Assembly: GCA_030062745.1 (NCBI GenBank)
Contig: CP099851.1
Span: 6,946,393-7,010,392 of the forward strand
Source: Capitulum mitella
Taxonomy: Eukaryota > Arthropoda > Thecostraca > Pollicipedomorpha > Pollicipedidae
Direction: 5' to 3'
DNA length: 64,000 bases
The stretch's first letter is position 1. Every line of letters begins with the position of its first letter. The notes below the pieces were generated by a model. The model was not told where the DNA came from, did no database searches, and was given only the letters and a program-made list of their open reading frames with translations. A program made the translations under genes and the position numbers. Shown one piece after another: positions 3,387 to 49,300 of this stretch.

Positions 3387-3416
3387 TTTTTTATTCCGAG
3401 CATGAAGACAAATTGG

Positions 3417-4456
3417 CCAGGCAACGTTTTCGGGAGGCACCACATGCCATTTTTGGTCTTGTTGAGGGTAAAAGGAAAATGATTGCCACAAATAGCGTTT
3501 TTGAGGTAGAACTTAAAACTTTATATGGATGTATAGCTATATAGCTGGGAAAAGTAGAAAATAGAATTTTGTCCGTCTGAAGTTACTTTACAAGGTCAGG
3601 TCAAGGTCAAAAGTCAAAGTTTGGTTTTATAATAAACATTTTGGCGTCGTTTCTTCAAATGCCAAACCCGGTTCATGTGTCACGTAGAAGAGTGACCTCT
3701 GCCTGTGTGCCAAGTTTCAGCTTGATATCATGTCATGTCACGGAGCTATGATCTGAAATATCAGTGTCCGTACCCTTTATCACAATAGCGGTAAAATAAA
3801 ATTTTTAAAATAGAGTAAATTCAAATGATTGACAACGTTTACGGATAACATTAAATGCACGAAAGATTATTCCAAGTAAAATCAAGGTCACTAGAGGTCA
3901 TTTAAAGTCAAAGGTCACAAGTTGATCTGAAGAGCATGTGACCATGTCGGATCCCCCTTTTTCATGTCCCTGGCGCCGCTTATGCTAATATTATACAAAC
4001 ATTGCAATACGATTTGTACGTCTTTAGCGTGACATGACTAGCAGAAACCAAAAGTGTTTTTTGCCTTTTTTGATCATTCATTTACTGAAAAACTAATCCT
4101 GCCGTTTTTGGAACCCTGTGAACGTCTATGAATTTTCCCCAAATTTCAAATGTGTGTACCAATGGTAGACGTGCTACCCGTAATCTGTCGATTCATGCCA
4201 ATTTCATCGAAATCGGTCCATAAACAACTTAGTTATAAAAAGTCCAAAAGTACCCCATATTTTGGTATTTTGTCCCTGTATCCAACTCTTTCAAAATATT
4301 TGAAATATTCTTTTTTAAAGTGTAGTTTACGTCATGGCAAATTGGTTGTCGTTTGTTGCGATGGAATCGGATGTGTAGTTCTCGAGATCTCAGGGGGGCG
4401 GAATCCGTCCCTCCTGCCGGGAATCGGCCATACCGTCTAGCCCTCCGGAAATAGGG
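3417..4456 (+). mobile_element. Family A element, 5'-truncated copy
   Basis: From CCAGGCAACG at 3417 to the terminal GGAAATAGGG at 4456 this matches the family A element at 27205-28406 in the same orientation. The shared blocks include the AGGTCA cluster near 3596, the clause on the ~4015 region (ATTTGTACnTCTTTAG), and the C/G-rich terminal palindrome near 4395-4440. The left about 150 bp, including the left inverted repeat, is missing; the palindromic microsatellite lies immediately upstream instead. The right flank reads TAAA rather than TTAA, consistent with decay. No coding sequence. Confidence 0.85.
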
Positions 4457-4888
4457 TAAAGACTAATCAGTTCGGGACATTTAGAGCTTATTGTGGAAGG
4501 TCGCAGATCTGCTTTCGTGCGTTCGGTGGTGGCGCCGCGGTTCGAAGGTACGCGATTTCGTCGCTGTTACATACTGTGACCATGCGAAGTGCAAGGCGCT
4601 GTGACTGGAGCCCAGAAGACGAAAGATGAAAGATTTATTGGTACGTTACTAGAAGGTAATCGAACAATGAATGGTTAGGCGGGCACAGTCCTTCACAATG
4701 CTCGTTTTCGGCATTTGCGGACAGTCCAGAATGCTTACTTGCTCCCTTGTGACGCTGAAGTTAATTCATTTCATCAGACCATGCGGTCTCATGACAGAAA
4801 ATACTACAGCAAAATGCCGAGGGATTTTTCTGTCTCTACCCCTCCGCTCTCGCAAACGTTTGGAAACGTTTGAAAAGAACGCCAACAT
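4457..4888. other. Spacer before retroelement fragment
   Basis: No independent gene seen. It may hold unrecognisable upstream sequence of the retrotransposon fragment that follows, but no reverse-transcriptase motif could be read in any plus frame here. Confidence 0.3.
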
Positions 4889-5533
4889 ATGACGTCGACA
4901 TTCAACCTCAGCCATGCTCCGTGGTCCATAGAGCTGGTACGTCGACATGATCGAAGAAAACACTTTTCAGCCCTCACTCGTCGCTGCTTCGGAATGTTGG
5001 CCTCCCTCACCCACCTCAGGCATCACCTTCCGCAGCCCATCCTAACATCTGTCTTTTCGACACTGATTCTTTCACAAATCAGATACCGCATTTCCGTTTA
5101 CGATACGCGTACAAAAACTAACATTGAAAGGACACAAAGTATCAACTTTTCGGCAAAAATAATCTACGACAGAAAAAAGTTCGTTCATGTGTCTGTCCTG
5201 CTGGAGAATTTTGAATGGCTTTCAGCTGGCGACGTTGCCACTTTTCGCGCTCTCTCTCTGGCTCACAAACAGGTCAAGGTCCTCCGGGCAGCCGGAGGAC
5301 CTGGCTGGCAAACTCGTACGAAACAACAGCTGTGCCAAATCGTGCAACAAGAGAGAACTAGAAGTTTTACTGTCCTCCAAGCAACACTGCGACCGGACAC
5401 CACTTCGATTTTAGAGCTCCTAGACAATATAACACCTTGCAGGCAACTCTCATTAACTGCCCTCAGGCGAGTTTTGCGACTGGTCTTAGGCATCATCTTG
5501 TGGACAACCGTTGGATGTCCTGAATGGGTCTGA
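4889..5533 (+). pseudogene. Non-LTR retrotransposon reverse transcriptase, C-terminal fragment
   Basis: A 214-codon frame reads like the thumb and C-terminal part of a LINE reverse transcriptase. It has a segment of the type LxxLRHHLPxPIL (about residues 40-50), then LILSQIRYRISVYD (about 59-72, the usual 'lvlshl.Y.i.vwg' block), then NFSAKIIYDRKKFVHVSVLL (the 'N.aaRii.grrk.dHvs..L' block), then WLSAGD and a region matching the post-RT tail of CR1/Jockey-like elements. The catalytic palm (YADD/FADD) and everything upstream are absent, so the copy is 5'-truncated, as LINE insertions usually are. The ATG at 4889 is only the first Met in the open frame. A host gene is unlikely. The clade is not resolved. 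Confidence 0.7.
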
Positions 5534-6641
5534 ATGCGATACATTCCCTTTTTTACCTTTCGTTTTGCGAATCGGCCCTTACCTTTCATCAGCCCTCTTT
5601 TGATCGCAATGTTGCGATGTTTTGCTCCGTGTGTCTTGCACCTCCATTGACATCTTCATTATTGACGAAAGATCGTGTCTCGCGTTTTTTTACGTGGATG
5701 ACCCCAAAGAAATGCATGATGATGACTGTCTGTCGTCTTTCAGAGAAGTAACATGTTGAACATTGTGTCTGTATTGCTAATATGTCCACGATTTGGAAAC
5801 ACCAATGCCTGCAGACACTGCATATTAGCAAATTCATTGTAAAAACGATCCTTACAATGAACAAACTTGTGACACACTGTCGGTCAAGTAGCCCGACACC
5901 GATTTTGAAAACAGCCCAGAGCGGAAAACGTTCCACGAGCACTATGCCATGACTCACACTTCCATAAAATTCTACGTCATATACACGGTCATTCTGTCTC
6001 CACTTCATAGTGTCCCTCCGCACTCAAACACACGCACTGTCTCTCACTGTCACTCATGCTATGATCTCTTCCTGAGTTCTGAAAGAAGCCATTGGACTTG
6101 ATACATGAGTAAGTCATGTCGATAAAAAGCATCAGAACATATACGGAAGGGAATGAGCTAGGAGGTTTGAACGCCATCGAACAACAGGCGTTCTTAATTA
6201 CACACAAACTTACTTCATGTCAACATAAACGCTCATTAATTCATACACGATTGCCTACCTCAAGGCAGACCAAGCAAGTGGTCACGCAAACCTCATCAGA
6301 TTTTCGTTCGTAAGTACTAAAAAAGTGGCGACAGCCAAGTTCACTGTGCACATCGAAAGATACTTGTCACACCCTTGGGGTAACCAGCCATCAACGGTAT
6401 ACAATCCTCTTGCCCTCTTGAAAGTGGAAATATCACGGGCAGCGATGACTAACATGCTCTCAAATCGGTCCGATATCGACATTAACGAGAACAAACAACA
6501 CAAGCACCTCGTCCGGAGCAGACGTCTATGTCGAACAGCTCCTTGCCGATGCACCAGCCGGCTCCAGGACTTTTCCCAGCAGTGCCCAGGCCTCTGCCAA
6601 TTCATCGACGGTCTCCAGGCCACTCGAATCCATCGCCGGCC
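5534..6641. other. Region between retroelement fragment and protease stop codon
   Basis: Probably contains the 3' UTR of the protease, which reads leftwards from 6642, and decayed 3' sequence of the retroelement. I found no clear AATAAA on the minus strand close to the stop codon. No other gene supported. Confidence 0.35.
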
Positions 6642-6815
6642 TCAGTTCTCGGCGATCGTCTGGCCGATCCAGTCCATGAACGAGTCCACACGGGTGTAGA
6701 TGCCCGGGAACTTAGGGCTGCCGCAGCCGACCGCGAAGGAGACGACGCCCAGCGCCCGCATCCGAACCCCACCGTCCTCCTTCACGAACGCCATCAGCGG
6801 GCCGCCGCTGTCACC
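6642..6815 (-). CDS. Protease exon 7: catalytic Ser and C-terminus
   Basis: The acceptor GCGTTGCAG|GGT. Encodes GDSGGPLMAF, a variable loop, VVSFAVGCG, PGIYTRV and the C-terminal helix SFMDWIGQTIAEN, then TGA. Length and ending are normal for the S1 family. Confidence 0.93.
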   Translation of the reverse strand, partial: GDSGGPLMAFVKEDGGVRMRALGVVSFAVGCGSPKFPGIYTRVDSFMDWIGQTIAEN

Positions 6816-9800
6816 CTGCAACGCACCGCGCTCACGTGACCGCATGAAAAGGCGGCGCTGCCGATCACATGACATGGTTCAAGCGCCGAGCTGATGTGAG
6901 TTTCACTACCTGCAGAGCCGCAAAAGACCATATGCCCCATTAATACACATCCTTCGTACTTAGGCTGGCTTTTCTCTTCCGCTCACGGACTTCTGGGGCG
7001 CTGAATCTATGGTTCAAGGCTCACGGATCACGACTCATGGGTCACGGCACGGCGACGGCCAGCTGGCGGTGTAAGGATGTAGGCTGAAGGCTCCAAGATA
7101 CTAGGCAACATTGTCGGAACTGAGGCTCCGAGTCTTTTCAAGGAAAACACATTTACGGAGCCCGCACTCAACGAACAGCTGACGACTTTCCGCGAACACC
7201 TTCGAAAATCCCCTGAACTCGGCCTCCGCTGTTAAACGCATTTCCATATACAAACATGTATATGCATGTGCAATTGTATATATCTATATGTACATATACG
7301 CACATTCCCATCTTCAGTGACCCAGACTGTCTGTTCTCTCCTGCTCCCCGCCGAGCCTCGACCAGAACTCCTCACCTCGCAGGCGTCGGCGCTGCCCTGG
7401 CACCGGATCTCAGTGGAGCCCGGTTCGCAGCCGGGCAGCGCGCGGTTGCGACCCGTCAGGTTGCCGCTGGCGCACACGTGCAGTCCGTCGTCGACGCGCA
7501 CGCCCACCGTGGCGTAGGTGTCGCGGCAGGTCGCAGGCCTGGTCGTGTTGACGAAGGCGTACTGCATGTAGACGGAGCCGATGCCACCTGCGGGAGAGGC
7601 CGGTGGACGCCGGGTCATAAAGGCGGCTCAGTCCACGTGCGGGACGCCAGACCGCAGGCCGAACGACGCAGTCCTCTGAGGCCGACGCCCGGCGTGCGCC
7701 CGCGGCGTGGCCTCAAGGACAGGTACATATTGCATCTTTTTTCTCTCAGTTTCGCGTACTTTGTTCGGGCTGGTGCACGTTCATCCTGAGCGATTCCAGA
7801 ATGACCCAGAATGCACCAGGAAGAAACTTGTCAGACCTGAAAGAGATTTCCTAATATCTCTTCTCCCACAACTTTGACTGTTTGATCGTGGGGAAATAAA
7901 AAAAAGTCCCCACAATGAACAGTCGTGATGTAATCATATTCAATCGGTATTCTTCCAACTTGCTTAATTACAGGCACAGGAATTCAACTAAACCGGGCAA
8001 GGGGGGGGGGGGTAGACGGGAGCGGGCACGCACATTCATTCAGATAACCAACATCAGAAAAAAACGTTTTAAAACCGTTTTTGCCGATTTAAGGGATACA
8101 TCCGGTTAATACCACGAAAAATACCATGGGGAATCCAGCGCAATTCTGGCCATATTTATTCGCTTCGACTCTCGAAGCCAATAAATATGCAAAGCCAATT
8201 ACTGCAACGTTGGGAACATGGGACTTTTCGAACCGTATCTCCCAAATTCACGCGTCTCACCCGATGCCTGTCCCTCTACGTGGTTTGCTCCCCGCCAAAG
8301 GACGCATGCGATTTTCTAGAATTAGGCTGACGCCGCACTGGCAATGCATACCGTGGTCAATCAGGATAATTTGCTGTTTATAGAAGTTATTGCATGCCTT
8401 ATTTTAGATTCCCCGTAAATCTATACTCTCCTCTGGATTTCCAGACAATTTAATGTTATCCTTAAACAACGTTTTCAGGCGAAATTTACTGCTTTTTTGC
8501 TTTAAACACACAAAGCAATGACTGCTCTTGGGCAACTGATGACAGATAAACCGCTTTTTATCAAATCACTAAGCAAGTACTTACCGAATTCGGTGAGTCC
8601 CCACCCGGCTATGATCGACTCCGTCATGTTCACCGGATCTGTCCCGTTGGGCAAGCAAATTGAGTGCACCACATCTGAAAAGAAAGGAAAACTGAAAGTC
8701 AGATGCGTTATTCAGCATCCAATCCATGCTAATTACGACCATCGGAAAGTGTAACCACCAAGTACGGCAAAGCCCCACCTTTCCGGAAAGACAGGACTGT
8801 GGGGTTCAAGTTAGGTTCCATCTTCACGAGCGGTTTTGTTGCTTCAGCGAGCCAGAAAGCCGGTCACAATATCATCCGACTAATCGCAAAGTACAATAAA
8901 GCCCCCTATGGCAGCGGAATAATGGTGGAGGACAAAATCGTCTCCCCTTGTCTTACAGAGGCACCAGCACCGCGTATTTCAACTACATTACTGCGATCAT
9001 TTGAGAGATCGTGCTTACAAACGTTTACTGAGCGCAAAACATGCCTACCAAACGTGAGTACACTTCAATAATACGGAAAAGTTTTGCACAATGACAATGG
9101 GACATTAAAAGCTTGCCGCTTGTTTCGATCGAAGGAGCATTCGCATATTTTCACTTACTTACTAGTCTGACACTAAACCCAAATGAACGTACGGCCGAAC
9201 CCGATACTTCTAGCAGTATTAATAGGAGTTCTTACTTGAAAACTTAATCGGCGTTTTGACTTTGAGCAGAGCAATATCGTTGATGAGGCCTTTGTTCGGA
9301 GAGAAGAATCCTCTGGAGAACTCTGGATGTCTGATGGCCTTCTCCACCTCGATGTTTTGCGGGGGATTGAAGAAATCATCGTCGACAGGGGTGTCCAGAT
9401 TCAGATCTCCAACACGTGCAGAGATTCTGCGATCATCATCAAAGCACTAAGATTCGCAGATTCAGCGCCAATCCTGTCGCTTCCGCCGTGTCACATCACT
9501 CACGAACAATCGCAGGTTCAGTGATGAGAGATGGGTCATAACGAAACGTTTTTTTTTTTAATCGAGGAGACGGTGGAAACAACAAAGCTATCTTGATTGT
9601 TGCACATCATTGATTAGTGAGTTATTTGAAGTTACGGAGGATTCGACAACATGCGCATGCAGCGCTCGTGCTAGACCGTATCAAGACGCAGGTGAAAACG
9701 AAAGAAAAGCAACAGCACACGAAAGTCACCAGAAATAACATTAACCGACAAAAGGCTACAGTGACAGATCTTAACAAGCGCGACACACGGCCTGACGTGG

Positions 9801-12800: not shown

Positions 12801-14159
12801 CGGGACCCACGTCACACACCTACCCAGAACCCACGCCACAGAGACCAACCGCGAAACAGCCAACGAGCCGCCAGACAACAAAGAACAGGCTAACAGCAAC
12901 ATGGCAAGGTCGCCGGCGGAGCTGGCGACCATGGGCGGAGTGGTTGCCGTGTGAGTGGGTCCCGTGCAGGGGCTATGACCTTGCCCCAGGCTACCGGCCT
13001 CGGGGCACGGTCCAAAGCCGCCAGCCGCTGCGATCCGCAACCGAAGAACCGATTATGACGTTAACTGCCGGAAGAGGTAAATGGATACCGGTGCCGACAG
13101 AGACTGCGCAGATTGCTTCAACACGACTGGTTGGTTGGTTGGTTATTGGGGCTTAGGGGCGCACCGACTGCAGGGTCATTCGGCGCCCAGAACACCACTG
13201 CGGCGCTGTCAGACGCCCATATGGCCGCACCGTGAAATAAACACAGATTTCTTTGTCGGTCCGCAGTGCATGTTGCTATTTTTGTGCCTCTGGCGAGCTA
13301 AGACGCCCGGCAAGCAGTTGAGCAGGAAACCTTATCAGCATAAGACGGTATCCGTCGAACGCCATGTTGTCGGATAAAAGAGTACGCCAGGGACTAGCAT
13401 TAAGTCACCAGCTGAGTACGTGGAGCGCAACTACATCCTGGGGGCCAAGGTAGGAACTGAAAATTTTACGATCCTCTCCAGTTTCTAAACAAATTCAGAA
13501 TTCGTAGTACAAACATGAATGCAAACATAGGCGCGGGAGCCATGGGGCCAGGGGGCTTCAGCCCCCAACTTTTTTGAAATTTAACATCAGCCCCACGGGC
13601 GTTGACTGGAAAGAACCCACCCAAAATGCTTCTCCCCCCGAACTGAAGAGGAGTTCCCATGCCCCTGAATACAACATCAAAACGAAATATGCGCCCCTTT
13701 TCGTGCAGCACAAAATCCAGTTTTCTGCATTAAACGTCTGGTCTTTGTCTTGACTACGATCTGACATAACCAACCTTGAGCTGGCGATTTTTCGGTCACG
13801 ATGAAGCATGGTAAACGATAACACTGCGTTGCCCCCTGCGACCCGACCGCTATAGCAGACGTTAGTGCTAACAAAGTCCACCAAGGCGCAAACAAGCCAT
13901 GGCCATATGATCAAGACGTCGACGCATCGCCCCAATAATCAAAACGCACGCTGCGACCACCACACATCTCTGGCATGCATCCACAGGCGAGACTGTGGCC
14001 TGCGAACCACACACATACACACAGTTCTCACGCGATGCGTCACAGCGTAAAGCTCAACACTACACTCCCATCACATAAGCACTCACTCTGCGCAGACCCG
14101 GCCGACAGCCAGCTGAGCAGCGCCAGGAAGCAGAAGATGCGCGCGCGGACGGTCGCCAT
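6642..14159 (-). CDS. Clip-domain trypsin-like serine protease, 7 exons, 400 aa
   Basis: Secreted zymogen of the arthropod clip-protease cascades (clotting, melanisation, Toll activation). Coding exons, in gene order: 14159-14087, 11802-11567, 10168-9942, 9426-9236, 8674-8585, 7587-7376, 6815-6642, 1203 nt in total including the stop. All introns are GT-AG, phases 1,0,2,1,1,0. Protein: signal peptide 1-23 or so; Pro-rich 34-49; clip domain with six Cys at 58, 68, 74, 94, 104, 105; activation site LGR128-IVGG; His172 in TAAHC; Asp229 in NDIALL; Ser346 in GDSGGP; Asp340 in the S1 pocket, so cleavage after Arg/Lys. NxT sites at 252, 258, 286, 315. Oddities: an insertion before the active-site loop with two extra Cys (326, 335), and Ala371 where trypsins usually have Gly216. 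The pathway role cannot be assigned from sequence. All other sequence in the span is intron. Confidence 0.93.
7376..7587 (-). CDS. Protease exon 6: pre-active-site region with Cys insertion
   Basis: The acceptor CTCTCCCGCAG|GT. Encodes residues 273-343, from GGIGS to DACE. It contains Cys293/Cys311 (standard pair), then an insertion of about 20 residues with Cys326 and Cys335, then Asp340-Ala-Cys342. It ends TGCGAG|GTGAGG, phase 0, directly before GDSGGP. Confidence 0.9.
8585..8674 (-). CDS. Protease exon 5: ICLP and GWG block
   Basis: A 90-nt exon, too short to stand out as an open frame. The acceptor is CTTTCTTTTCAG|AT. Encodes VVHSICLPNG, two N-glycosylation sequons, and IIAGWGLTEF. It ends TTCG|GTAAGT, phase 1. 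Confidence 0.9.
9236..9426 (-). CDS. Protease exon 4: loops and catalytic Asp
   Basis: The acceptor GATCGCAG|A completes a split Pro codon. Reads VGDLNLD, an acidic loop (VDDDFF), HPEF, then NDIALLKV with catalytic Asp229. It ends TTTTCAA|GTAAGA, phase 1. The acidic calcium-loop-like patch sits where clip proteases often carry one. Confidence 0.9.
9942..10168 (-). CDS. Protease exon 3: clip end, activation site, catalytic His
   Basis: The acceptor GTCGGCAG|TGC opens with the CC pair (104-105), followed by Cys119 (the inter-chain disulfide partner, probably with Cys249), cleavage site LGR|IVGG, FPWMAAL, CGGAVI and LTAAHC with His172. It ends GGACC|GTGAGT, phase 2. Confidence 0.92.
10169..11566 (-). 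other. Protease intron 2
   Basis: 1398-bp intron, GT-AG. Holds the 22-bp minisatellite at 11335-11505 next to the donor side. The rest (10290-11300) shows no exon or recognisable repeat. Confidence 0.8.
11335..11505. repeat. Minisatellite, about 22-bp unit, in protease intron 2
   Basis: About seven imperfect units of the type CCCCACAACACGnTACTGACC, for example at 11363, 11419, 11440 and 11465. Divergence between units suggests age. Confidence 0.75.
11567..11802 (-). CDS. Protease exon 2: Pro-rich stretch and clip domain
   Basis: The acceptor TCCTCCGGCAG|TC restores phase with exon 1 (codon ATC across the junction). It encodes residues 25-103: a Pro-rich segment rich in PTPxP, then clip cysteines 1-4. 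The spacing is C-x9-C-x5-C-x19-C. It ends CTGCTG|GTGAGC, phase 0, exactly before the paired CC that closes the clip domain. The open frame extends further left and right, but those extensions are intron. Confidence 0.9.
12741..12842. repeat. 27-bp minisatellite, about 4 units, in protease intron 1
   Basis: The unit contains CACACCTAnCCAGAACCCA followed by CGC. Since 27 is a multiple of three, all three plus frames stay open and give 9-residue repeats (HTYPEPTPQ-like). This is a translation artefact and not a protein. Confidence 0.85.
13524..13668. repeat. Dispersed repeat D, copy 1 (CpG retained)
   Basis: Matches 30602-30771 over about 150 bp (CATAGGCGCGGGAGCCATG ... AAAATGCTTCTC ... GTTCCCATGCCCCTG). 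This copy still has GCGCGG and ACGGGCG, where the other copy has GCACAG and ATGGGCA. The family is unknown. Confidence 0.8.
14087..14159 (-). CDS. Protease exon 1: signal peptide
   Basis: Starts at ATG 14159 in good context (GTAACCATGG). It encodes 24 residues with a basic start (MATVRAR), a hydrophobic core (IFCFLALLSWL) and a small-residue cleavage region (SAGSAQ). It ends cag-a|GTGAGT, phase 1. A CCCGCAG sits 7 nt upstream of the ATG, so an acceptor for a 5'-UTR intron is possible. Confidence 0.9.
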
Positions 14160-26554: not shown

Positions 26555-26558
26555 TTAA

Positions 26559-28960
26559 CCCTATTCCCGACAGGTGGGGTGAATGCGGCCCCCCACGGGT
26601 TTTTCGCTTGTCAATTCCAGGCTTTTTGACGCAGCTGTACGAAACGCGGTCACTTTTCCTTACTAGTCTTTCTAGGTACTGTGACAAAATTTCGAAATTC
26701 TGTTTTGCTCAGGGGCGGAGCCAGGCAACGTTTTTGGAAGGCACCTCAGGCCATTTTTGTCCCTGTTAAGGGTAAAGGAAAAATGAGTGCCAAAAATAAC
26801 CTTTTTAAGATAGAACTTAGAACTTGATATGGGTGTATAGCTAAATAGCTGGTCCACTTGCAAATATAATTTTGTTTGTCTGAGGTAACTACAAGGTCAG
26901 GTCAAGGTCAAAAGTCAGAATTTGGTTTTGTAGTAATATTCGTTGCTATTTTTTCAAATGCCAAATCCGGAACATATATGACGTAGAAGGGTGCCCTCTA
27001 CTTGTGTAACAAATTTCAGCTTGATATCAGGTCGGGTCACGGAGCTATGACATACAATGTCAGTGCGCTTACCCTATACCACAATAGTCATAAAACGGAA
27101 TTTTTGAAACAGAGTAAATTCACATGATTGAAAAAGTTTACAGACAATATTAAATGCACACGAGATCATTCCCAGTGACCCCAAAGTCACTGGAGGTCAT
27201 TTAACCCTATTCCCGGCAGGGGGGCGGAATCCGCCCCCCCTCGGGTTTTTTGCTTGCCAATTCTAGGCTTTTTAACGCAGCTTCACGAAACTTGGTGACT
27301 TTTCCTAGCTATTCTTTCTACGTGCTGTGACAAAATTTCAAAATTCTATTTTGCTCAGGGGCGGAGCCAGGCAACGTTTTTGGGAGGCACCTCATGCCAT
27401 TTTTGGCCATGTTAAGGGTAAAAGGAAAATGTCTGCCAAAAACAGAGTTTTTAAGACAGAACTTAAAACTTTATATGGATGTATAGCTAAATAGTTGGGC
27501 AATGTGCAGATATAGTTTTGTTCTCCTGAGGTTATTTTACAAGGTCAGGTCAAGGTCAAAAGTCAATTTTTTTTTGCTATAATTTCGGGGCCGTTTTTTC
27601 AAATGCCAAACCTGGAATACATATGGCGTAGAAGGGTGCCTTCTACTTGTGTACCAAGTTTTAGCTTGATATCAGGTCGGGTCACGGAGCTATGACTTAA
27701 AATGTCCGTGCGCGTACCCTATATCGCAATAGCCATAAAACGACATTTTTGAAATAGAGTAAATTCAAATGATTGAAAACGTTGACAGATAATATTAAAT
27801 GCACATGAGATCATTCCAAGTGACCCCAAGGTCACTGGAGGTCATTTAAGGTCAAAGGTCACAAGTTGATCTGAGAAACGTGTGACCATGACAGTTCCCC
27901 CTTTTTCATGTCCCTGGCACCGCCTATGTTAACATTATACAAACATTGTAATGCGATTTGTACTTCTTTAGTATAACATGACTAGCAGAAGCCAAAAACG
28001 GGTGTTTGCCTCTTTTGTTCATCCAGTTGTTAGAAAACTAATCCTCCTATTTTTGAAACCCTGTGAACGCCCATGAATTTTCTCAAAATTTCAGATTTGC
28101 GGATCCATGGTAAAAGCCCTATCCATAATCTCTCGATTCATGCCAGTTTCATCGAAATCGGTTCATAAACAATGGAGTTATAAGAAGTTCAAAAGTACCC
28201 CCCATTTTGATATTTTTGCCCCCCTGTATCCACAAATTTCAAAATTTTGAAAATGTCTTGTTATAAAAATGTAGTTCACGTGACGGCAAATCGATTGCCG
28301 TTTGTTGCGATAAAATCGGACGAGTAGTTCTCGAGATCTCCGGGGGGGCCGAATCCGCCCCCTCTGCCGGGAATCGGCCATGCCGTCTAGCCCTCCGGGA
28401 ATAGGGTTAAGGCCAAAGTTTACAAGTTGATCTGAAGAGCATGTGCCCATGACAGTTTGTCCTTTTTCATGTCCCTGGCACCGCCTATGCCAATAGTATA
28501 CAACCGTTGTAATACGATTTGTACTTCTTTAGCATAACATGACCAGCAGAAACCAAAAAGCTGTTTTTACCTTTTTTGTTCATGCAGTTTTTGAAAAGCT
28601 AATCCTCCCATTTTTGAAACCTTGTGAACACCTATGAATGTTCTGAAAATTTCAAATGTTTGTACAAATGTTAAACGTCCCATCCATAATCTCTCAGTTC
28701 ATGTCAATTTCATCAAAATCGTTCCGTAAACAACGGAGTTATAAGAAGCCCAGAAATATCCCCCTTTTGACTTTTTGCCCTTGTATCCATCCCTTTCAAA
28801 ATTTTGAAAATTCCGTTTTATAGAAATGCAGTTTACGTCACAGCCGTTTGTTGCGATGAAATCGTACGAGTAGTTCTCGAAATCTCGGGGGCGAGGCCGA
28901 ATCCGCTCCTCTCCCCCTTGCTGGGAATCGGCCATACCGTGTAGCCTTCCGAGAATAGGG
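26559..28960 (+). mobile_element. Family A element, outer copy, interrupted by a nested copy
   Basis: TTAA at 26555-26558 is followed by CCCTATTCCCGAC; the right end is TTCCGAGAATAGGG at 28960 followed by TTAA 28961-28964. It is interrupted at 27201-28410 by a second copy of the same element plus its TTAA duplication. Removing the insert leaves about 1196 bp, matching the inner copy's 1202 bp. Non-coding. Contains the C/G-rich terminal palindromes and AGGTCA clusters typical of the family. Confidence 0.88.
27205..28406 (+). mobile_element. Family A element, complete nested copy (piggyBac-like, TTAA duplication)
   Basis: A 1202-bp unit inserted into a TTAA of the outer copy. It is bounded by TTAA 27201-27204 and 28407-28410. 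The termini are CCCTATTCCCGG at the left and CCGGGAATAGGG at the right, a perfect 12-bp inverted repeat, each followed inwards by a C/G-rich hairpin (GGGGGGCGGAATCCGCCCCCC at 27219-27239 or similar, and GGCCGAATCCGCCCCC near 28346). The uninterrupted target GGTCATTTAAGG can be read in the copy itself near 27841. These are the diagnostic features of piggyBac-type transposition. No transposase frame, so it was mobilised in trans. Confidence 0.92.
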
Positions 28961-28964
28961 TTAA

Positions 28965-29441
28965 AATAACTTTCTGCTAATGAACGCCAATGTTTATTGG
29001 TCTGCGTGAGCCTACATTACGTCTCATCGCTGGATGTCTACCGAGTGTAATTTTTAACTGTTTACGTCTTCTGAAACTTTTAGATTTTTTAGGGACTGCA
29101 AACACAATCAACGAAATGTTTCCCGCCCATCTAAGTCTGTTCATCAAATGTCGAACGACTTAGACCTTTGCTTAATGAAACTGGAACCCGTTATTTTGAG
29201 CTACTGATTTCAAGATTTTGATTTAATTTTGAGCTTCTCATGCCGTTTTCAGCGAGTTCAAACAACGACCTGTTCACAGAAAGTCGAAACGTGGTTTATG
29301 ATTGTGTACTTTAAATAAGAAGCCAGTCTGTCTTGGTAACCAAGACCTAACCTGGCATTATGAGTCGGAATTTATTTTTTTGGTGTTGCTCAGAGAAGCC
29401 CAAAGATTCCAACAGTAAAGGGAGCTTTTTTATTTCCTTAG
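28965..29441. other. Intergenic, no gene seen
   Basis: No open frame of note, no repeat match found within the window. Confidence 0.4.
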
Positions 29442-29956
29442 GCCATCATTGTAAAAAAATTGTGTCGGCGACGGCTTTTTTTGCTCTGATTTGCCGTCTC
29501 CCGTTATCATAAACCAACGGTGAAAAAAATTCTACGGCAGAAAAAGACGACACTGAAAAGCCGTCACTGACAGCGATTTGGTTCTCACAAAACTCCAGTT
29601 GCGGCAGCTGGTGGCGCAGGAATGCGCCACAGTTGTAAAAAGACGACACATTCGACAGCAAACAAAAAGCAACGGAGTCGCTGCGTTTTTATGTCGAGGC
29701 ATGGAGACCCGAGATCGTATCCGGTCACGCTTTGAGTTTGTGAGGCCCACCATGCTTTTTGAAGAGGAGGTGGAGTATGAGATCGCTTTTCACGGCCAGG
29801 TTGGGCCAGCGGGACGGCCAAGTGTTTCGCTGGACCGCCAACTGTACCACATCATGCCATGCCTTTGTGCGTCGCTGCTGGACACCTGGACCCTTGAAGT
29901 CACCATAAAGCTTCTGCATCATGTTAGACCAATGTGTTGTGAGATTTCATTTACCG

Positions 29957-31135
29957 CCATTTCCAGAAACACCTTCAATGCCAAAACATGGGTCATTTGA
30001 AGTGGTTGGACCAAGGAATAGTTTTCCAATTCTATTTCATCAACAAGTAGTAAATTTAACTGATTTCATTGCACTAGAACACTGTAATTCTACAACTAGT
30101 CATCTCATGTTAAGTCACTGCTGTATAACCAGGAGCAAGAAAGCATTTTTGGCACAAGTTTCTCCAAAATTAGGGGGTGGTCAAGGAAACATTTTGGGCC
30201 AATTCTTTCCAGTGACCACCAATAGAGTTAATGCTACATTTCATAACAAAGGTGCAGTGTGGGTGCAGCTGTGCCTTCCACCCCACCCACATTCCCTAGA
30301 GTATACCAGTCTGATTTGTGTTTTTGTTAGCTTTCAAAGTATGAATTCAAACTTTGCACAAGCTAGCAGCATGCATATGCAAAGATTGCATTGCATGCTC
30401 AGTCTTGCAATGGAAATACTTGCAAAATCAATGGTGTCAATTTGTATTGTTTTGTGATGGCCCAGATCAAGGCTGCATTGTTTTTTTTTTAGTGTTGAGG
30501 AACACCAGAAAATTTGTGCTCCAAAAATATTTTGTACTCCAAAAGTTTGATCTTGAACTAATGATTCTGTCTCCATTCAGTAAGAAGTAGGGATAATGGC
30601 ACAACCATAGGCACAGGAGTCATGAGGCTAGGGGAGGCTTCAGCCCTCCCTAATTCTTTGGAATTTAACAATGACTCTATGGGCACTGACTAGAAAGAAC
30701 TGGCCCAAAATGCTTCTCAACCCCCCCCCCCCAATGAAGAGAAGTTCCCATGCCCCTGGGCATAACTGAATTACAAGGATGCCAACTTAAACCAGTACTA
30801 AGGTTTGCAAAATTTTGTACTCCAAAACAAAAATTATACTGACACCAAGAAAAAAAAACAAAATTTTGAACCCTGGCCCAGACCCTCAATGCTGATTTGG
30901 CCCAATGTTGGTTAGGCAACCCCAAACTGGTCCCATATGTAACAAAGAAGAAGGGAAACATTAAATATCTCATGGTGCCTGCCAGTCTTGGGCATTATTT
31001 GATGACCATGATTACTGTGCTGCTCAAAATAAAGAACATCTGCTCCATGACCATTCATGATCCAAGTCCAGTTTCAGTTTCAGTTAGATGATATCCATAT
31101 ACCACTGCATACCAGATGAAATGCAAATAACCAAT
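29957..31135. other. 1179-bp CpG-free segment
   Basis: I read every line between the CpG at 29955-29956 and that at 31136-31137 and found no CG dinucleotide, although C and G are common and TG/CA are abundant. Only three CpGs occur between 31136 and 31506. Segments on either side contain CpG at ordinary density. No gene seen. Confidence 0.93.
30602..30771. repeat. Dispersed repeat D, copy 2 (CpG lost)
   Basis: Homologous to 13524-13668. Four of the five CpGs of that copy are TG or CA here. Contains a 12-base C run at 30721. Confidence 0.8.
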
Positions 31136-32416
31136 CGAAAATCATCATTCTTGGAACTTTGGCCTCTGTAACAGAAACTGAGGAGAAATCCCGAGCACTG
31201 AAAATTATTTGGCCACAATCTAAGGAGTTTCTTGGGGGTGGGGGTGGGGTGGAAGTAAGGCACCAGATCTGGTTGGTGGATAAGGCATTGGGTTTGGCAC
31301 CCCAGCGAAAAAATGCCACCTCTGACAATTGGGGACTGCAAATACAAGGTGAAATTTATACATGCTCTGCTGCATATACAACAAGATGCTGACCAATACT
31401 GAAAGATGCCAACAATTAACCATCCTGAAAGTTGCTTTGGATACCAATACCTTTGAAGGGGCCTTGCCCTTAACAATATCTCATTTTTACACATACATGT
31501 ACATGACGCACAACGTATGGAAAGTTTTGGAATGACCACAGAGTCTGATATTACTCTTATATCCAATAACATTTTTCAAGACGTGGAATCCCATGCCTTT
31601 GCTAGAAGCCGAAAAAAAACGGGAAAGCGTAATAAAAACTGAACAAAATCAAACTCTTCACAGCGGGCAACAGTCATACACTTACAACTTCCAATGTCCG
31701 CATGAACGTAAAAAGCTCCGTTTTCTTTGACGATTCGGAGTGCTTCATGTTTTCATGCTGTGCACGAGCTGCGTCGTAAAACCACTCTCGCTAAACAAGA
31801 CTGGAAGCACAAATTTTAATGACGGGAAAACAGCAATGATTTTTGTCTTTAAATGTTTCACATGCCAACACGAATATTTTATGTACGTATTCCAGTCTTC
31901 AAAAGTTCCAGTGAATCAGAATTCTTTTTTTCTTACGTCAACCCTGAAAAAAATAACGATTTGACGTACATGCGTTTTATTCATGATGACCGATTTGGCG
32001 ACCGCCATCTTTTCTCTGTCGTGGATTTTTTTTTGCCGTCGCCGACATTATTCCTTTGTAATAATGGCTTCTTATCATCAAAGTCCGGGAGCCAAATAAG
32101 GTCATTCCAACCTTATTAAATCATGTTTCTGCTTGTGTTGGTTCGCGCGATTGCGTGCCTGTCTCATGGATCGCCCGTCTTCCACTTCAAGACGTTGCGC
32201 TCCATTTAGACTTTGGAACCAAAACATGGCGCAGCTGGTAAGATCTTTGCCGACTGCCCAGCTTTTCCACGCGAAATGCCGGCTCGCATTGATCCGGTCC
32301 GTTCTGCGGAGAGCCGCGGAGCGTTCCTGACATCGACAAGACCGACGGGACGACGACTTCCTCCTATCGGAGGTCGCTGGACCTCCTTCTCATGGTGGAA
32401 CTAGACCTGTCTCCTC

Positions 32417-48370: not shown

Positions 48371-49177
48371 TCAGCTCAACATGCCGCGGCTCAGGCAAGC
48401 AGGTCGCGATCGCTTCCTGTTATACTGGCCAAACTCTTGGCGTTCAGCTTGTCCTCCGTGAGGGTGCACTGGCGTGATCTCCGACGTCGTGCGGTTGCCA
48501 CTAGATGGCAGTCCGGTAATCAGCGCCATCTTGCCGCGAAGGCGTTGGGCGCGCAGCATGCGGTCGACTCTGCCCGAGACGGTCTGCTGGCGGCGGCGGC
48601 GCGCCGCCGGGTCGTAGCGCGCCAGCGGCGGACAGACGGCACGGCCGGCGCAGAGGCAGGCGGCCAGAGCGGCCATCAGGCCCAGCGTCAGCAGCAGGGT
48701 GATGCCGGCCGCGCCGAAGCTGTCCTTCTCCGGCGGCCGGTCCCCGCCGGCCGGCCGCGACTCCGCGTCGTCCTCGTCCTCGTCCTCGTCCTCGGCGTCC
48801 TCCTGCGCCTCGGTCGCGGCCTCCTCTGCCGCCTCCCGCAGGCTGTCGGCTACACGAGACGCGGCCTGCTCGTCCTGCCCTCTGACGAACAGCTCAGCAA
48901 GCTCCGGTTGGCCAAGCTGACGAAGGGCGTCGCGGAGGTCGGGCGCGGCGCCGCCTCGTCGACTCCATCGGCGGAGCAGCGCGCCGCAGGGCCGGTCCAG
49001 ACGGCTCCCAGCCTTGGTCAGCTGCTGGTACAACTGCACGCACTGGTCCCGGCTCAGTGCATCAGCCACCTCCTGCAGGGAAGCCTCGACCACCGCGGCC
49101 GCTGCCGGTCGGGCAGCCAGCAGCAGGCCGGAGACCGCCAGCGCTAACGCTCCAGGCCACTGCTGAGCGAGTCGCAT
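48371..49177 (-). CDS. Single-pass membrane protein with N-terminal helical (death-fold-like) domain, 268 aa
   Basis: The start is ATG 49177 (an in-frame GTG four codons upstream is less likely). Order: signal peptide 1-26 (core ALALAVSGLLLAA, then ARPAAA); helical domain about 34-98 with pattern LxEVADALSxxxCxxLYQQL, a central C-x-ALLRRWSRR, and DLRDALRQLGxPELAELF; helix 100-125; run of Asp/Glu 126-139; membrane helix 158-177; basic cytoplasmic tail from 191 (ARRRRQQ). The helix pattern, with the W and the final LRxLGxxELAELF, recalls six-helix death-fold domains, placed here outside the cell; this is my inference. Codons are very G+C- and CpG-rich, unlike the surrounding repeats. No intron is needed, but a split C-terminal exon cannot be excluded after about residue 224, where composition changes. 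Confidence 0.65.
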   Translation of the reverse strand: MRLAQQWPGALALAVSGLLLAARPAAAAVVEASLQEVADALSRDQCVQLYQQLTKAGSRLDRPCGALLRRWSRRGGAAPDLRDALRQLGQPELAELFVRGQDEQAASRVADSLREAAEEAATEAQEDAEDEDEDEDDAESRPAGGDRPPEKDSFGAAGITLLLTLGLMAALAACLCAGRAVCPPLARYDPAARRRRQQTVSGRVDRMLRAQRLRGKMALITGLPSSGNRTTSEITPVHPHGGQAERQEFGQYNRKRSRPACLSRGMLS

Positions 49178-49300
49178 GCTCAGACGCACGGCCTCGGCTG
49201 TTTCGATCGACGCTCGGACGCAGGAGAAAGTCCCCTAGGAGGCTTCTGCTGACTGGGGAGTTTCTGGGGAGGCTTCTGCTGACGAAATTTGTTTGGGCCA
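49178..49300 (-). promoter_or_regulatory. Putative 5' flank of the membrane-protein gene with small direct repeat
   Basis: Immediately upstream of the start codon. Two copies of GGAGGCTTCTGCTGAC, at 49238 and 49268, are separated by CTGGGGAGTTTCT-type sequence. No TATA box identified. The role is inferred from position only. Confidence 0.25.

Follow-up and report, generated by a model that had tools for sequence, protein, structure and literature searches.

Why does a block of more than a kilobase in the genome of Capitulum mitella contain no CpG dinucleotide at all, when the DNA on either side has them at normal density? Within the 64,000-nucleotide stretch of DNA analysed here (the window), CpGs occur at positions 29955 and 31136 with none between them, and the next follow at 31192, 31306 and 31507. 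At 40% G+C the 1179-bp block would be expected to hold 47.2 CpGs, a value within the range of 45–50 that the initial annotation had estimated by eye for about this G+C content; the exact positions likewise bear out its count of no CpG across the block and three more up to 31506. TG and CA are in excess in the block, at observed/expected ratios of 1.56 and 1.42 where the remainder of the window has 1.15 and 1.12, and GpC is normal (observed/expected 1.10). The second-longest CpG gap of the window measures 212 bp. A scan of the window gave a lowest count of 29 CpGs per 1179-bp stretch outside the element described below.

Ten open reading frames of the window produced no Pfam match above the cut-off, a tRNA search of the window found none, and an Rfam search of the window gave no match at the gathering score. 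Two other features of the window were recorded. On the minus strand, 48371–49189 is an open frame of 272 amino acids; its start looks signal-like by eye, and its weak match to a Death domain (E 0.0044) falls under the Pfam cut-off. A long direct repeat at 26555–28970 consists of two copies separated by approximately 645 bp, and a third copy lies at 3416–4466, at a distance of 23 kb.

The block forms the central part of an element of 2.6 kb (29441–32069) with inverted ends, which was absent from the initial annotation (Table 1). We searched the whole assembly (477 Mb, 16 contigs) with the block and found two further copies, one near full-length on C10 (85% identity) and one in pieces on C5 (88–91%). 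When the three copies were aligned with their flanks, homology spanned approximately window positions 29436–32076 and the flanks differed; pairwise divergence of the copies is 7–11%. The C5 copy is flanked on both sides by TCTGA, an exact 5-bp duplication. The right end of the C10 copy is interrupted by approximately 1.2 kb, and no recognisable target-site duplicate was found at that copy. The left end occurs at seven further loci (L017–L023), which match the left part over varying lengths, the farthest (L018, L019 and L021) ending at element position 383–408. A search of the assembly with the right part matched the three copies only. In the search for a transposase, the open reading frames of the element (four in the window copy, one in C10 and two in C5) gave no Pfam match. 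With inverted ends and dispersed copies in unlike flanks at three loci, the element is a DNA transposon with terminal inverted repeats, and it appears to be non-autonomous; a comparison of its ends and of the 4–5 bp duplication with known superfamilies led to no assignment. Two structural details were seen in passing: the C5 copy carries an extra inverted duplicate of approximately 65 bp (query positions 533–597), and at the right end of L019 the last ~500 bp, near the related element, form a nearly CpG-free stretch that reaches the edge of the sequence examined.

Table 1. Features of the element and of its CpG-poor interior, in window coordinates.
Feature	Position	Strand	Remarks
Left target-site duplication candidate CCTTA	29436..29440		4/5 match with right partner TCTTA
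Left terminal inverted repeat GGCCAT...TGTCGGCGACGGC	29441..29475	+	Mirrored at right end; common to relatives at other loci
Transposon-specific left part, CpG-normal	29441..29837		Shared with other family elements at seven loci, L017–L023
Antisense exon fragment KLYGDFKGPGVQQRRTKAWHDVVQLAV	29833..29913	-	Follows splice-acceptor-like CAG; CTAAC ends 9 nt before exon
CpG-poor interior	29956..31506		3 CpGs against 64.9 expected; CpG-free 29956–31135; CpG-poor in 3/3 copies
Inverted partial repeat D copy	30173..30243	-	Absent from the initial annotation
Repeat E part	30482..30556	+	Continues at about 30766–30872, beyond repeat D
Repeat D copy, 0 CpG	30602..30771	+	Copy at 13522–13667 has 5 CpGs
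Third dispersed repeat F	30987..31096	+	Recurs in the assembly
CpG-normal right part	31507..32034		Observed/expected 1.41 over 31507–32072; possible antisense donor-gene promoter/first exon
Right terminal inverted repeat	32035..32069	-	Mirrors left end
Right target-site duplication candidate TCTTA	32070..32074		Partner of CCTTA at 29436–29440

Contamination or misassembly from a CpG-poor genome, already thought unlikely in the initial annotation, has practically no probability left and was dropped: two more copies lie on different contigs of chromosome size, and three repeat families, represented by four stretches in the block, recur elsewhere in the same assembly.

The repeats inside the block record what happened to its CpGs. 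A consensus of repeat D was built from eight copies, namely the copy at 13522 and those of seven loci among at least 35 full-length D matches; four of the eight were taken as bare sequence without flanks. The consensus has five CpGs, and all five are TG or CA in the window copy of the element, with transitions at 6 of 77 other C or G bases (Fisher p = 1.7e-5, in a test that sets sites against single bases). Measured against the copy near 13522 only, four of five CpGs are TG or CA, as had been noticed before, and the fifth falls in a gapped run of C. The C10 and C5 copies of the element have also lost five of five D consensus CpGs each, as has the D copy within L005, a further CpG-poor block (three transitions at 73 other bases); the eight other D copies compared retain 2–7 CpGs each, one weak copy in L043 being left out of the count. 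At one ancestral CpG the inverted and direct D copies of the element read TG and CA; at a second the inverted copy reads TT, which is not simple decay. The first part of repeat E has no consensus CpG; its second part has two, one of them TG in all three element copies and the other at a gap. Repeat F has a single consensus CpG, which is CA in the window and C10 copies and still CpG in C5. At L011 and L012 the E parts occur without D between them. The D core was also scanned against viral contigs, where nothing was found, and an imperfect palindrome distinct from the inverted D pair lies at 30325–30399.

A shortage of CpG that arose without methylation, whether through chance, through base composition or because CpG was selected against, is hardly credible beside these figures: no CpG against 47 expected, TG and CA in excess, GpC normal, and changes in repeat D that are CpG-specific (5/5 sites against 6/77 bases). 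We therefore dropped it; the reading of the D changes as a signature of methyl-CpG deamination gains support from the consensus comparison, and methylation was probably the cause of the CpG loss.

Where the CpGs were lost can be judged from the three copies. CpG counts in the window, C10 and C5 copies are 32, 35 and 30 in the left end, 3, 9 and 14 in the interior, and 30, 18 and 24 in the right end (truncated in C10); confined to gap-free columns, they are 3, 9 and 10 in the interior and 16, 18 and 16 in the right end. Separate decay in each copy would give many sites where one copy reads TG and another CA; in the interior we counted 222 concordant TG/CA sites and only 4 discordant ones. For comparison, double transitions of seven control classes showed one disagreement in the interior and one in the ends. 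In the ends, two or more copies have CpG at 49 sites (98 bases); seven of these bases carry a transition in the third copy, compared with 37 transitions over the full set of 408 majority C or G bases, and the CpGs of the ends were thus not decaying fast. TG-versus-CA sites in the ends number none without a CpG and one where the third copy retains it, a right-end site reading CG, TG and CA in the three copies. Interior sites with CpG in two or more copies number four, none with a transition in the third copy; five more interior sites are CpG in one copy and identical TG or CA in the other two, and each may be a gain or a loss. Judged by these alignments, most of the CpG loss predates the spread of the copies and hence was not made at this locus.

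The first option of the initial annotation was a block methylated and decayed at its present insertion, as a silenced element. The window copy does have the fewest interior CpGs (3 against 9 and 14), and at four sites one copy has TG where another has CA. The 222 concordant sites in copies at unlike loci and the element ends that kept their CpGs stand against this option; silencing in place is on these grounds very improbable and was set aside. The four discordant sites suggest some later decay, or master copies that had already diverged. A related idea is that the interior continued to attract methylation after moving, a piece of gene body bringing its own methylation signal and the transposon ends staying unmethylated. 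Its basis is the four interior TG-versus-CA sites against one double change in the seven control dinucleotide classes. Against it, none of the four interior majority-CpG sites shows a transition in the third copy, and the master copies may already have differed from one another when they moved; we hold this idea to be doubtful.

The element carries a fragment of an exon in antisense orientation. A 52-residue query from the C5 copy matched, in the assembly, all three copies of the element and, weakly, six other places (E 0.02 to 1.9); five of the weak matches span query positions 9/11 to 34/38 and one spans 9 to 41, and one has an internal stop. The best relative (C14:18885227-18885310, locus L059) has 50% amino acid identity at a genome-wide E of 0.02. 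Its alignment to the exon scores 81, against a maximum of 46 in 5000 shuffles, and identities at the three codon positions number 17, 19 and 12 of 28 between the C10 copy and the C14 relative. The relative starts after CAG, at the same acceptor position as the element exon, and its open frame enters a GTGAGT donor-like site shortly before a stop. L059 has 4 CpGs against 19.5 expected, in a locus of 311 bp only. Judged by its splice-like sites, the C14 exon may belong to a host gene, a mobile element being the alternative for a locus of this size. Among the three element copies the exon differs by two silent and two replacement changes, so that no constraint on it is visible. The exon motif resembles Myb/SANT-like domains by eye, an identity that we gave up: Pfam assigned the exon to no family, and PDB matches had E above 1 only.

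Similarity to transposon relatives ends at 402–408 in L018 and, with the C5 query, at 402 in L019, stops sooner (383–394) in L021 and sooner still in the remaining relatives; exon similarity begins at 397–403, where similarity to the transposon relatives ends. The element has internal sequence that is homologous to a gene-like exon on C14 and absent from related elements. At the other side, a GTAAGT donor-like site is seen by eye on the minus strand of the right part in two copies, window and C5, where C10 reads GGAAGT; the antisense first exon predicted there by eye matched nothing outside the three element copies. Since promoters are usually spared from methylation in invertebrates (PMC8857917), this CpG-normal right part is possibly the promoter and first exon of the donor gene.

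Exon and intron could instead be a gene of the transposon itself, for example one for an accessory DNA-binding protein, in a long-lived master copy whose gene body was methylated and whose ends were not; no capture would then have taken place. The relatives of the exon are several and divergent, with six weak matches, one of them holding an internal stop, as transposon genes often are, and Pfam names none of the pieces tested. The seven left-end relatives, on the other hand, show no match beyond position 408, where exon similarity has already begun, and on C14 the relative shows splice-like sites in surroundings that are poor in CpG, as those of the sampled genes are. We regard a gene of the transposon's own as unlikely, while giving it some weight.

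We favour, at a probability of roughly 70%, capture by an inverted-end transposon of an exon and an intron from a gene that had long been methylated, with the CpG-free block as the transposon's cargo. The intron of the donor gene would have been CpG-methylated in the germ line until nearly all its CpGs had become TG or CA. An ancestral element would then have taken up approximately 2 kb of this other gene in antisense orientation, comprising the start of an exon, the splice acceptor and the preceding intron, and perhaps reaching as far as the promoter and first exon of the donor. Unlike that intron, the left part proper to the transposon would not have been methylated in this way. The composite element would subsequently have jumped, leaving at least three copies in the assembly. 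It is probable that the donor gene belonged to the host and that capture came before jumping; the case is drawn from three copies only, which is few. Searches of the assembly with 29957–30170 and 30870–31506 returned at full length the three element copies only, the latter search giving besides 14 short matches of repeat F and no donor. A block copied from a methylated source locus had been the second suggestion of the initial annotation, and the shared TG/CA sites, the exon homology and the junction all speak for it. Most likely, the missing CpGs are a fossil of methylation at the gene of origin and not of silencing at the present site.

Similar blocks occur elsewhere in the genome. We counted CpGs in 1179-bp stretches of 20 random 10-kb regions: 18 regions have no stretch with fewer than 26 CpGs, and the minima of the other two are 0 and 4. 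In random region L032 a CpG-poor block at 5105–7650 contains a SAM_TNK exon, belonging to what we take to be an ACK-type kinase gene; in random region L038 the block at 6902–8581 adjoins USP14 exons. Two loci chosen non-randomly add a prefoldin-2 exon within a CpG-poor part (L007) and the block of L005. TG is in excess at 1.41–1.63 in those blocks and CA at 1.35–1.70, compared with 1.55 and 1.39 in the element interior. CpG-poor blocks in or beside genes therefore appear to be a feature of this genome. The earlier view of the block as the only one of its kind does not survive two similar blocks among 20 random regions. Findings named beforehand as counting against its local reading came out unevenly: copies that lack CpG and comparable blocks elsewhere were both found, and both go against that reading, but the blocks elsewhere do have the TG/CA excess that they were to lack. 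Inside the CpG-poor gene block of L032, at ~6700–6850, we also saw a degenerate CTAACC/AACC-like tract, telomere-type by eye.

The genome has a maintenance methyltransferase, represented by a DNMT1 exon on C2. A second PF00145 locus on C4 is Dnmt2-like by eye, and DNMT3 gave no match in the assembly at the sensitivity of one search. Invertebrate methylation is described as mosaic and directed to gene bodies, with CpG-poor gene bodies, promoters usually spared and DNMT1 present (PMC8857917; PMC11706791).

The few blocks examined suggest that gene bodies in this genome are marked by CpG loss. If so, the absence of CpG is a label of origin, and transposon cargo would be recognisable as gene-body DNA even once its donor is lost. 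The copies of the element allow one to ask whether gene-body methylation follows sequence or place, and the element itself is a candidate case of an animal DNA transposon that has captured part of a gene. We found no literature joining Capitulum mitella and methylation, and the portions covered of the literature on gene-body methylation, on CpG depletion and on the capture of gene fragments held no report of CpG-poor captured cargo.

The Pack-TYPE transposons of plants (PMC8903248) resemble the element in being non-autonomous DNA transposons with picked-up gene DNA; here, in contrast, the genome is that of an animal, and the cargo is mostly intron, antisense and CpG-stripped, with a donor that was not found. 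The element would work like a Pack-TYPE element and is not classed as one, because the search for the donor locus found only element copies or distant relatives. Transduplication by Turmoil-1 of C. elegans (PMC2572040) likewise places gene-derived sequence inside an animal DNA transposon; coding pieces lie within the inverted terminal repeats of Turmoil-1, whereas the space between the ends is occupied here by one exon fragment and an intron poor in CpG. With invertebrate mosaic gene-body methylation (PMC8857917; PMC11706791), the genome shares CpG-poor gene bodies and the presence of DNMT1, but the CpG-poor stretch described here lies within a transposon, away from its probable gene of origin.
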